Positions 32,167 through 38,052 of a DNA stretch of 38,052 bases are shown here, in pieces; the stretch's first letter is position 1; the number at the start of each line of letters is the position of its first letter. The stretch comes from Paracoccaceae bacterium (GTDB lineage Bacteria > Pseudomonadota > Alphaproteobacteria > Rhodobacterales > Rhodobacteraceae). The stretch is taken from positions 1 to 38,052 of the forward strand of contig JAQWIK010000034.1 of assembly GCA_029248915.1 (NCBI GenBank), read 5' to 3'. The notes under the pieces are model-generated. The model searched no databases, had not been told where the DNA came from, and saw only the letters and a list, made by a program, of their open reading frames with translations. Made by a program: the position numbers and the translations under genes.

Positions 32167-33471
32167 TTAATCGAAAAACACTCTTTGGAAAATCGTATCG
32201 ACATGTTTTGTGTGGTAGCCAAGATCAAATTTTTCGTAAATTTCTTCTTTTGTTAGCACCCTCAAAACTTCTGGATCGTTGAGGAGTTCCGTTTTGAAGT
32301 CTTTACCGTCTTCCCAAACTTTCATCGCGTTCTTTTGTACTAATTTGTACGCATCTTCGCGATTCATACCCGCTTGCGTCAAGGCAAGCAGAACACGCTG
32401 AGACATAATTAACCCACGAAATTTATTCATATTTTTTATCATATTATCCGGGTAAACCACCAATTTTTTAACAACAGATGTTAAGCGCGCTAAGGCAAAA
32501 TCTAAAGTTACTGTAGTATCAGGGCCAATATTTCTTTCTACGGAACTGTGGCTGATATCTCTTTCATGCCAAAGCGTAACATTTTCCAGGGCAGGTATAA
32601 CTGCCATTCTCACAAGACGAGAAAGGCCTGTAAGATTTTCAGTTAAAACTGGATTTCTTTTGTGCGGCATCGCAGAAGAGCCTTTTTGGCCCTGTGAGAA
32701 GTATTCTTCAGCTTCCAGAACCTCGGTTCTTTGCATATGTCTAATTTCTGTTGCGATGTTTTCTATAGAGCTAGCAATGACTCCCAAAGTGGCAAAGAAT
32801 GCTGCATGTCTGTCTCTTGGTATAACTTGGGTTGATATTGGTTCAGGAATAAGACCTAACTTTTCGCAGACATATTTTTCAATGAAGGGATCGATATTTG
32901 CAAATGTACCAACCGCACCAGAAATAGCGCCGGTTGCTATTTCATTTTTTGCTATTTCTAATCGACTTCTGTTTCTCTTCATTTCAGCAAAAAATCTTGC
33001 AAAGGTTAGCCCCATAGTCGTTGGCTCGGCGTGAATGCCGTGACTTCTTCCTATTCTGACAGTCATCTTGTGTTCTTCAGCTCTCATTTTCAAAGCACTC
33101 AGAAGCTCATCAAGATTTTCTATTAAGATATCACTCGCACGTACTAATTGAACATTTAAACAGGTATCTAACACATCAGAGCTTGTCATACCTTGATGTA
33201 CAAAACGAGCTTCTTCACTTCCGATGTGTTCAGCTAAGTGGGTTAAAAATGCAATTACATCATGCTTTGTTGTTGCTTCAATTTCATCTATTCGGGCGAC
33301 GTCAAACTCAACATCTTTTGCTTTCCATACTGCTTCTGCGTTTTCTAATGGTATTACACCTATTTTAGCCATTGCATCGCAAGCATGCGCTTCAATTTCA
33401 TACCAAATTTTAAACTTCGTGCTTGGTGACCATATATCTACCATTTGGGGGCGCGAGTAACGTGGTATCAT
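32167..33471 (-). CDS. purB: Adenylosuccinate lyase
   Basis: The 434-residue fumarase/aspartase-superfamily enzyme catalyses two steps of purine synthesis: SAICAR to AICAR plus fumarate, and adenylosuccinate to AMP plus fumarate. It begins MIPRYSRPQMVDIWSPSTKF, contains KHDVIAFL and HQGMTSSDVLDT (about 85-105), IGRSHGIHAEPTTMG with the catalytic-type His, and the superfamily signature GSSAMPHKRNPV at about residues 263-274. The ATG at 33469-33471 has AAGGA seven nt upstream. It follows dddP in the same direction with a 90-base gap. Confidence 0.98.
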   Translation of the reverse strand: MIPRYSRPQMVDIWSPSTKFKIWYEIEAHACDAMAKIGVIPLENAEAVWKAKDVEFDVARIDEIEATTKHDVIAFLTHLAEHIGSEEARFVHQGMTSSDVLDTCLNVQLVRASDILIENLDELLSALKMRAEEHKMTVRIGRSHGIHAEPTTMGLTFARFFAEMKRNRSRLEIAKNEIATGAISGAVGTFANIDPFIEKYVCEKLGLIPEPISTQVIPRDRHAAFFATLGVIASSIENIATEIRHMQRTEVLEAEEYFSQGQKGSSAMPHKRNPVLTENLTGLSRLVRMAVIPALENVTLWHERDISHSSVERNIGPDTTVTLDFALARLTSVVKKLVVYPDNMIKNMNKFRGLIMSQRVLLALTQAGMNREDAYKLVQKNAMKVWEDGKDFKTELLNDPEVLRVLTKEEIYEKFDLGYHTKHVDTIFQRVFFD

Positions 33472-35809: not shown

Positions 35810-37216
35810 TTAGCAGCTGTAATACATTCCATACTCTACAGGATGAGGTGTATGCTCATATGCCTCAATTTCTTCCATTTTGAGTCCGATATAGCCATCT
35901 ATCTGGTCTTTAGTAAAAACTTCTCCAGCAAGTAGATATTCATGATCCGCTTCAAGGCACTCTATTGCTTCCCTCAGGCTTCCACACACTGTTGGAATAT
36001 CAGCAAGCTCTTCTGCTGGAAGGTCGTAAAGATTTTTGTCCATCGCTTCGCCGGGGTCAATTTTATTTATAATACCATCTAGCCCTGCCATCATTAGAGC
36101 GGAGAAGCAGAGATACGGATTGGAGGATGGATCAGGAAATCGTGCCTCTACCCTTTTTGCCTTGGGCGATTCAGTCCAAGGAATACGAACACATCCTGAT
36201 CTATTTCGGGCTGAGTAAGCTCTTAATACAGGAGCTTCAAAACCTGGTATGAGCCTTTTATACGAATTTGTTGACGGGTTAGTAAATGCATTCAACGATT
36301 TAGCGTGTTTTAAAATACCACCAATAAACCACAGTGCTTCGTCAGAGAGGTCAGCATATTTGTCGCCAGCAAAAAGTGGTTTTCCATCTTTCCAAATCGA
36401 CATATTGCAATGCATCCCGGTTCCATTATCGCCTGCAATCGGTTTCGGCATGAAAGTAGCAGATTTTCCATATGCCTGAGCTACGTTATGGATCACGTAT
36501 TTGAACTTTTGTAATTCGTCACCTTGCTTTGTAAGGCTCGAGAATATTAGACCAAGTTCATGTTGGCATGAAGCAACTTCGTGATGATGTTTATCAACAG
36601 ACATTCCTAGTCTCTTCATCGTTGAAAGCATTTCTGAACGTATATCTTGACCATCATCAATTGGGTTAACAGGAAAGTAACCGCCTTTTACGCCAGGCCT
36701 ATGGCCGGTATTCCCGATTTCATATTCCGTATCTGTGTTCCAAGAAGCGTCTAAGGCATCCACTTCAAAAGATACTTTGTTCATTGAATTTGAAAATCTA
36801 ACATCGTCAAAAAGGAAAAATTCAGCTTCGGGTCCCACAAAAAATGTATCGCCGATACCTGATGACTTCAGATATGCCTCAGCCTTCATCGCAGTTCCGC
36901 GTGGATCTCTATTATAGGCTTCACCAGTATCCGGCTCAACGACATAACAGTGGACGCATATTGTTTTCTCTGCATAAAAAGGGTCAACGTAAGCGCTTTC
37001 CGTGTCTATCATTAATTTCATATCGGATGCCTCAATGGATTTCCAGCCGGCAATAGATGAGCCGTCAAACATAAACCCTTCCTCAATAAAATCAGCATCC
37101 ACTTGATCCGACATAATTGTAACGTGTTGTAATTTTCCACGTGGATCAGTGAACCTAACATCCACATATTCAGCATCCTCGTCTGAGATTAGTTTGAGCA
37201 AATTCTCTGCGCTCAT
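35810..37216 (-). CDS. glnA: Glutamine synthetase, type I (adenylylated form)
   Basis: The 468-residue enzyme makes glutamine from glutamate, ammonia and ATP. Visible motifs are DVRFTDPRGKLQHVT, FDGSSIAGWKSIEASDM (about 50-66), GPEAEFFLFDD (about 128-138), the metal and ATP segments GYFPVNPIDDGQDIRSEM and NGTGMHCNMS, and RIPWTESPKAKRVEARFPDPSSNPYL. Tyr397 in DKNLYDLP is the adenylylation site, so activity is expected to be tuned by GlnE and PII. The ATG at 37214-37216 follows AGGAAGGA. It lies 21 nt after glnB in the same direction, the standard alphaproteobacterial glnBA operon. Length is normal. Confidence 0.98.
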   Translation of the reverse strand: MSAENLLKLISDEDAEYVDVRFTDPRGKLQHVTIMSDQVDADFIEEGFMFDGSSIAGWKSIEASDMKLMIDTESAYVDPFYAEKTICVHCYVVEPDTGEAYNRDPRGTAMKAEAYLKSSGIGDTFFVGPEAEFFLFDDVRFSNSMNKVSFEVDALDASWNTDTEYEIGNTGHRPGVKGGYFPVNPIDDGQDIRSEMLSTMKRLGMSVDKHHHEVASCQHELGLIFSSLTKQGDELQKFKYVIHNVAQAYGKSATFMPKPIAGDNGTGMHCNMSIWKDGKPLFAGDKYADLSDEALWFIGGILKHAKSLNAFTNPSTNSYKRLIPGFEAPVLRAYSARNRSGCVRIPWTESPKAKRVEARFPDPSSNPYLCFSALMMAGLDGIINKIDPGEAMDKNLYDLPAEELADIPTVCGSLREAIECLEADHEYLLAGEVFTKDQIDGYIGLKMEEIEAYEHTPHPVEYGMYYSC

Positions 37217-37237: not shown

Positions 37238-37588
<351 letters not shown>

Positions 37589-37847: not shown

Positions 37848-37932
37848 GCGGGTGTGGCGAAATTGGTAGACGCACCAGATTTAGGTTCTGGCGCCGCAAG
37901 GCGTGGGGGTTCAAGTCCCTCCACCCGCACCA
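37848..37932 (+). tRNA. tRNA-Leu(UAG)
   Basis: The 85-base gene folds as a class II tRNA. The acceptor stem is GCGGGTG (37848-37854) with CACCCGC (37922-37928). The D arm has TGGCGAAATTGGTAGACGCA. The anticodon stem CCAGA/TCTGG (37875-37879, 37887-37891) holds loop TTTAGGT with anticodon TAG at 37882-37884. A long variable arm GCC-GCAA-GGC follows, then the T arm GGGGGTTCAAGTCCCTCC. CCA is encoded at 37930-37932. The anticodon reads CUA and probably other CUN codons. A probable integrase gene starts 57 nt after it. Confidence 0.97.
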
Positions 37933-37988
37933 ACTCTTCTTAATAACCTACTGATATTCCTTCGACTTTAATTATCGGAGGTAAAATC

Positions 37989-38052
37989 ATGTCACACATC
38001 CCGTACACAATCAGTCGTTCAGGCTGCTATTATTACAATAGACGTGTGCCTA
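37989..38052 (+). CDS. N-terminus of a probable tyrosine recombinase/integrase (truncated by window)
   Basis: An ATG at 37989, six nt after a strong GGAGGT (37977-37982), opens a frame that runs 21 codons to the window edge: MSHIPYTISRSG then CYYYNRRVP. This short start, ending in a YY-x-RRVP pattern, resembles the DUF6538-type N-terminus of tyrosine integrases that is common in Rhodobacterales. Position directly downstream of a tRNA-Leu 3' end, the classic attachment site, agrees with this. The catalytic Arg-His-Arg-Tyr residues are outside the window, so the call rests on the short N-terminus plus context. Confidence 0.6.
   Translation, partial: MSHIPYTISRSGCYYYNRRVP

Follow-up and report, generated by a model that had tools for sequence, protein, structure and literature searches.

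The contig analysed here stops a short way beyond a tRNA gene and inside an open reading frame, which raises the question of what that frame encodes and whether it marks the edge of an integrated element. The window, i.e. the whole stretch of DNA that was analysed, is all of contig G000:C34 (38,052 bases) from a marine member of the Rhodobacteraceae. A search of the whole window with ARAGORN gave a single tRNA gene, a tRNA-Leu close to the right edge, in which the TAG anticodon is visible and the terminal CCA is encoded at 37930-37932; the complete tRNA-Leu(UAG) described in the first-pass annotation was thus borne out. The features at and near the edge are as follows, G002 being the genome that holds a full-length relative of the truncated gene.

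35810-37216, minus strand: glutamine synthetase gene (glnA), left flank (PF00120, E 8.2e-131)
37238-37576, minus strand: P-II nitrogen regulator gene (glnB), left flank (PF00543, E 1.7e-32)
37848-37932, plus strand: tRNA-Leu(UAG) gene, CCA included, presumed to be the attachment site on the left (ARAGORN and sequence)
37914-37932, plus strand: likely att core, the tRNA 3' end, its length taken from the 19-nt displaced copy of tRNA-Thr in G002
37933-37988, plus strand: spacer of 56 nt from the tRNA end to the integrase start, matching G002 at 36 of 56 positions
37977-37982, plus strand: GGAGGT ribosome-binding site (sequence)
37977-38052, plus strand: 76-nt run identical to the G002 integrase locus (pairwise DNA comparison)
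37989-38052, plus strand: 64 nt (21 codons) of coding sequence, truncated at the contig edge and very probably the beginning of a tyrosine integrase gene whose product starts in a DUF6538-like way

The integrase start and its full-length relative

The frame at the edge begins with an ATG at 37989, reads MSHIPYTISRSGCYYYNRRVP and is open to the contig end at 38052. Its 21 residues gave a sub-threshold match to DUF6538 (PF20172; E 0.061, 13.5 bits, cut-off 27). A DNA search of 41 genomes found the window end at one other place, contig G002:C15, with 92% identity over 101 nt, and a scan of genome contigs with the integrase gave Rhodobacteraceae bacterium AG-343-P20 as the sole match. G002 is apparently this strain, which belongs to the same genus, and C15 corresponds to CACAPQ010000015.1. 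Because the complete integrase of 371 residues on G002:C15 begins with the same 21 residues, the frame in the window was identified as an integrase start, very probably that of a tyrosine integrase. The two loci are identical at 76 of 76 nt, made up of 64 nt of the gene and the 12 nt before it, which include the GGAGGT that had correctly been called a strong ribosome site. The whole spacers agree at the 36 positions given above and the last 20 nt of the tRNAs at 12 of 20; to the left of tRNA-Leu the two genomes are, in contrast to the 76-nt run, ~84% identical.

The G002 protein matches Phage_integrase (PF00589; E 1.3e-19, 71.1 bits, cut-off 27.1), a PHROG integrase family (4.5e-42) and the solved XerA (7.2e-05), and its match to DUF6538 (E 1e-4, 22.4 bits) lies below the curated cut-off of 27. 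In tyrosine integrases an R, an H-x-x-R, an H or W and a Y have catalytic roles, and R218, H310, R313, W336 and Y346 of the G002 protein are found at the expected motifs. A protein of Ruegeria sp. TM1040 that is annotated as DUF6538-containing is 32% identical to the integrase, and no paper dealing with DUF6538 and integrase together was found in the open-access literature.

Matches to the integrase at E <= 1e-20 were present in 34 of 295 genomes. The 39 loci that were examined, the better matches together with G002, are a subset of all matches, and a whole tRNA lies no more than 400 nt upstream in 27 of them; among the other 12 there are some in which the N-terminus was not located. Displaced tRNA-like ends were seen at four of these 12, L038, L114, L121 and L078. 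The spacing from tRNA to start is 56-58 nt in ten loci (the window, G002, L061, L064, L110, L068, L065, L066, L103 and L108), and the tRNAs used by this group are Leu (UAG, GAG, CAG and UAA), Thr (UGU), Arg (UCU), Met (CAU) and Asn (GUU). The start of L062 is broken, its homologous ATG lying at 56 nt. Exceptions to the spacing are L063 (69 nt) and L113, L115, L116 and L118 (40-42 nt), the last four having frames that begin near residue 75-83 of the G002 protein. This common spacing and the full-length relative together support the integrase start proposed at first pass. The gene had been placed 57 nt past the tRNA and it is indeed there, but the gap is 56 nt, 57 being the offset.

Displaced tRNA ends downstream of the integrase were found in G002 (19 nt at +5.9 kb), G206 (60/61 nt at +9.2 kb) and G148 (31 nt, 93.5%, at +5.9 kb). 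In G002 the integrase sits after a 46-nt copy of the end of tRNA-Thr(UGU), and its element of ~5.9 kb is in tandem with a second element of ~10 kb that bears another integrase. The tRNA and its partial copies lie as follows on G002:C15, of which positions 4001-55284 were read.

32605-32623: 19-nt copy of the tRNA-Thr end
38530-38575: 46-nt copy of the tRNA-Thr end
48710-48785: tRNA-Thr(UGU)

The second integrase of this tandem carries an Arm-DNA-bind_3 domain (L038 14530-16000, L039 4711-4786). Among the five other proteins of the 5.9-kb element one matched MORN_2, one FliL and one, weakly, PG_binding_1, and two had no match; none of the five was matched by PADLOC models, which gave one weak WYL match (E 0.0017) among two proteins of the G148 element. 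A PHROG 4756 protein (L096 17520-18767, L095 14115-14768, L042 15949-17484) was noted in the G148 element, in broken form in the G206 element and near a tRNA-Arg in G004, with a distant relative, by alignment only (20%), at L138 5679-7082; its motifs EVD and VHDS may be those of a polymerase palm.

Genome G317 holds two copies of the integrase, at tRNA-Leu(GAG) and tRNA-Arg(UCU) (L098 and L110), which are 81% identical over 242 residues. Both contigs end in the same 121 nt of the integrase gene and differ upstream, a pattern that may be read as an assembly interrupted by recombination between the copies or by a half that they share. As a guess, the window contig may end where it does because the gene is repeated in its genome; a search of its own assembly for a second copy of the integrase start or gene found none.

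The tRNA-Leu site and the choice of explanation

The state of the site in related genomes was examined in a genus set of 16 genomes including the window's own. The tRNA-Leu stretch was matched in 12 of these (the own genome and 11 relatives) and had no match in G005, G009, G010 and G013; the genes downstream are given here by Pfam names from one representative each. In none of the 11 relatives that hold the tRNA was the integrase found at tRNA-Leu, and the genus search, confined to this integrase family, returned G002:C15, the window and a 27% match on another G006 contig. The comparison with relatives lacking the insert that had been proposed at first pass was run, and the site exists without an insert in G001 and G014, where a flavoenzyme gene of the right flank lies directly past the tRNA, at no more than 0.1 kb (as two frames in G014). 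Trigger factor lies 0.26-0.74 kb past tRNA-Leu in G003, G006, G008 and G012, and ~8.2 kb from it in G001. A flavin monooxygenase followed by the flavoenzyme was found past the tRNA in G002 and, by eye, in G007, the contig of which begins within tRNA-Leu, and other genes were found there in G011 and G015. In G004 (L041 = C53, L042 = C29) the tRNA is followed by a methyltransferase, EpsG and other sugar- or polysaccharide-type genes, and a 35-nt second copy of the tRNA-Leu end lies beside the right flank on another contig. The ORF listing for those parts of this island that are visible shows no integrase. The second tRNA-Leu end in G004 indicates that the site is used by elements.

The window's own genome was searched for the missing parts. 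The rest of the integrase gene was absent from the assembly when searched with the G002 integrase, and searches with a 28-nt and a 19-nt pattern, in which up to 2 mismatches were tolerated, gave no second tRNA-Leu end. The right flank resumes only ~2.25 kb past the point that corresponds to the G001 junction, on contig C44, so that the right end of the element (attR) would fall in an assembly gap. Contig C108, at whose end lies an integrase fragment, was a candidate for the continuation and was rejected, since other genes follow and there is no match to the full G002 integrase; the fragment, of 41 residues, presumably resembles the end of a XerD-type recombinase. Another integrase of this genome, on C102, had no DNA match to the fetched loci. 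The genome also carries two pufL-pufM pairs (L107, G000:C44, 1686-3450; L112, G000:C76, 2390-4154) with proteins that are ~88% identical, and a similar copper protein near each, the one on C76 being judged by eye. By synteny with G001 the pair on C44 belongs to the right of tRNA-Leu. The sole match to PuhA in the genome is on C61.

In the window the integrase start lies immediately next to the 3' end of an intact tRNA. Because of this position and the identity with G002 an integrated element most likely begins at the window edge, and there is a high probability that the contig ends within the left end of an element inserted at tRNA-Leu(UAG). A partly overlapping possibility is that the gene is a remnant, a decayed or truncated integrase from an old element of which no mobile part is left. 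Broken copies occur frequently in the relatives (L061, L062, L068, L103 and L108), so the window gene could be one too, and the rest of it was not assembled; however, the 64 visible nt form an open frame with a good ribosome site ahead of it and match an intact gene of another genome exactly, which points to recent arrival and makes a mere remnant rather unlikely. The sharp start of the G002 identity 12 nt before the ATG, a contig that stops 64 nt into the gene and the example of G317, where the tRNA-Leu and tRNA-Arg contigs both stop within one shared stretch of the gene, would also suit an assembly artefact, a chimera or a repeat having placed the last 76 nt next to the tRNA. Such an artefact is nevertheless highly improbable, as the order of tRNA, 56-58 nt and integrase start is the layout of nine other loci and the window spacer differs from that of G002, 36 of 56 positions being shared, and by eye is similar to that of G206 at tRNA-Leu(GAG).

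The first-pass annotation had allowed for a prophage as well as a genomic island, and prophages often carry a tyrosine integrase at a tRNA gene. That part of the claim found no support. The integrase has no close relative in the IMG/VR contigs, and in 13 phage records the best match was 27.4% identical over 90% of the protein, the maximum being 28% over part of it. Nor was any phage structural family found among the scanned proteins of the G002, G206 and G148 elements, which are a subset of the ORFs, few of them compared with PHROGs. Alignment of phrog_4756-like proteins gave no relative in the IMG/VR contigs, and the range of the IMG/VR scans is limited to close relatives or to a small number of conserved patterns. 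A prophage in place of a small non-phage element is accordingly given very little chance.

Under the preferred reading, an element integrated at tRNA-Leu(UAG), the left end would encode a tyrosine integrase with a DUF6538-like N-terminus directly past the tRNA. A circular element would have recombined with the chromosomal tRNA gene at a short core, of ~19 nt by analogy with G002, that is the tRNA 3' end. The tRNA would thereby stay intact on the left (attL), and on the right (attR), in the gap, a displaced copy of its 3' end would be expected. Excision and integration, the short core and the remainder of the gene are part of this proposal, as is a size of ~6-9 kb like that of the three relatives. 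What the contig end most likely shows is a real boundary of an integrated element, ordinary in kind and truncated, which comes with a probable and informative target switch and an unexpected sister clade.

A probable target change and a sister clade with inverted att sites

A tree was obtained for 29 of the 39 rows, with 10 left out as broken or with no N-terminus found; it is midpoint rooted and has several long branches, and the window ORF is too short to be placed in it. Two groups were apparent, one of 12 rows that includes G002 (the window's clade) and a sister clade of 17. The tRNA differed in six of six within-genome sister pairs, three of these forks falling below the starred level of support, and this difference is confounded because one site in a genome is hardly open to two copies. 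Cross-genome sister pairs, judged by upstream sequence, had the same tRNA in two of two cases (L065/L066 at Leu-GAG and L072/L078 at Phe). The window and G002 are a cross-genome pair with different tRNAs: the G002 copy is at tRNA-Thr and that of the window at tRNA-Leu, and therefore one gene start occurs with tRNA ends that differ in structural class. A recent change of target, by the integrase or by its att module, is probable.

Comparison can be made with several known systems. As in the tRNA-integrated islands of Islander, an integrase lies by an intact tRNA, with a displaced tRNA end in three relatives, but those three are small (5.9-9.2 kb) and the right end of the window's element lies outside the sequence (PMC4383910). 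For the archaeal IntpT26-2 integrases, which are in part suicidal, target diversification was reported, with switching restricted to one tRNA class (PMC8371274). The resemblance to this account lies in related integrases at different tRNA genes and in recombination between copies being proposed as a source; unlike IntpT26-2 as there described, the Leu/Thr and Leu/Arg pairs cross classes, and their integrases agree either at all 21 residues that are visible or at 81-86% of positions. Tycheposons of marine bacteria, described as elements of 4-200 kb with metabolic cargo, share a tRNA at one border, a tyrosine recombinase and streamlined marine or freshwater hosts (PMC10872708). The window shows a tRNA border and a recombinase start, cargo and right border lying beyond its sequence.

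The sister clade shows a different arrangement of att sites. Inverted repeats of 79-244 nt flank the integrase in 13 of its 17 rows, at 100% identity in 10 of the 13 and at 91-99% in the others, and were absent around the integrase in L073, L074, L080 and L122. Each repeat is composed of the terminal nucleotides of the tRNA at that site plus the spacer, and in 10 of the 13 it takes in at least 3 nt of the gene. The cargo was checked in seven elements having the integrase pair and several kb downstream (five in G076, one in G230 and one in TM1040). In six of the seven the cargo lies between the copies of a second inverted pair (379-3183 nt, 95-100%), which overlaps the middle core, the Leu-CAG element of G076 having none, and a third, direct core of 16-17 nt was present in all five tested of those six. 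The Ser-TGA cargo of G076 is inverted relative to both the Ser-GGA (5089 nt, 89.6%) and the Thr (5054 nt, 89.3%) copies, with the integrase ends of the Ser pair in the same direction (2158 nt at 90.4%). The G076 cargo arm, which encodes a protein of 1074-1091 residues with a weak ResIII match, is thus present in either orientation among elements at different tRNA genes; as the G076 copies have diverged by ~10%, no date is put on the flips. The same layout, with type I restriction-modification cargo, was found outside the tree at tRNA-Phe on the megaplasmid of Ruegeria sp. TM1040 (NC_008043.1). The loci with this layout are listed below.

L150 14899-27668: TM1040, NC_008043.1
L133, L135, L138 and L139: G076
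L151 with L146: G230

The yeast 2-micron plasmid is split into two arms by recombination sites in inverted orientation. The sister clade is like it in this respect and in having a cargo arm in both orientations, but is bacterial and integrated at tRNA genes, and the layout was not seen in the window's own clade. There, an inverted att copy after the integrase was absent in 10 of the 12 tree rows, those with at least 1.5 kb downstream, and a search of part of the rows for longer inverted repeats gave only one unrelated 170-nt pair (79%), in a G154 element. No description of inverted tRNA att sites around an integrase was found in the titles and opening lines of abstracts of the open-access literature. 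Flipping of the cargo would be driven by the integrase. It is possible, if somewhat short of an even chance, that a Roseobacter-group family of small tRNA elements, to which the window integrase would belong, has had its integrase carried across tRNA classes by exchange of att modules, and, as part of the same tentative reading, that in a sister clade with a 2-micron-like flipping layout three tRNA-end cores, the middle one inverted, split the element into an integrase arm and a flippable cargo arm.

Within the genus the interval to the right of tRNA-Leu(UAG) is variable and holds trigger factor, a block of flavoenzyme and pufLM, a flavin monooxygenase, a polysaccharide-type island or an integrase. 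The match between the window and G002 allows a change of target by a tyrosine integrase to be tested, and the sister clade, which includes the named strain TM1040, would be a bacterial system for recombinase-driven flipping of arms and perhaps for amplification.
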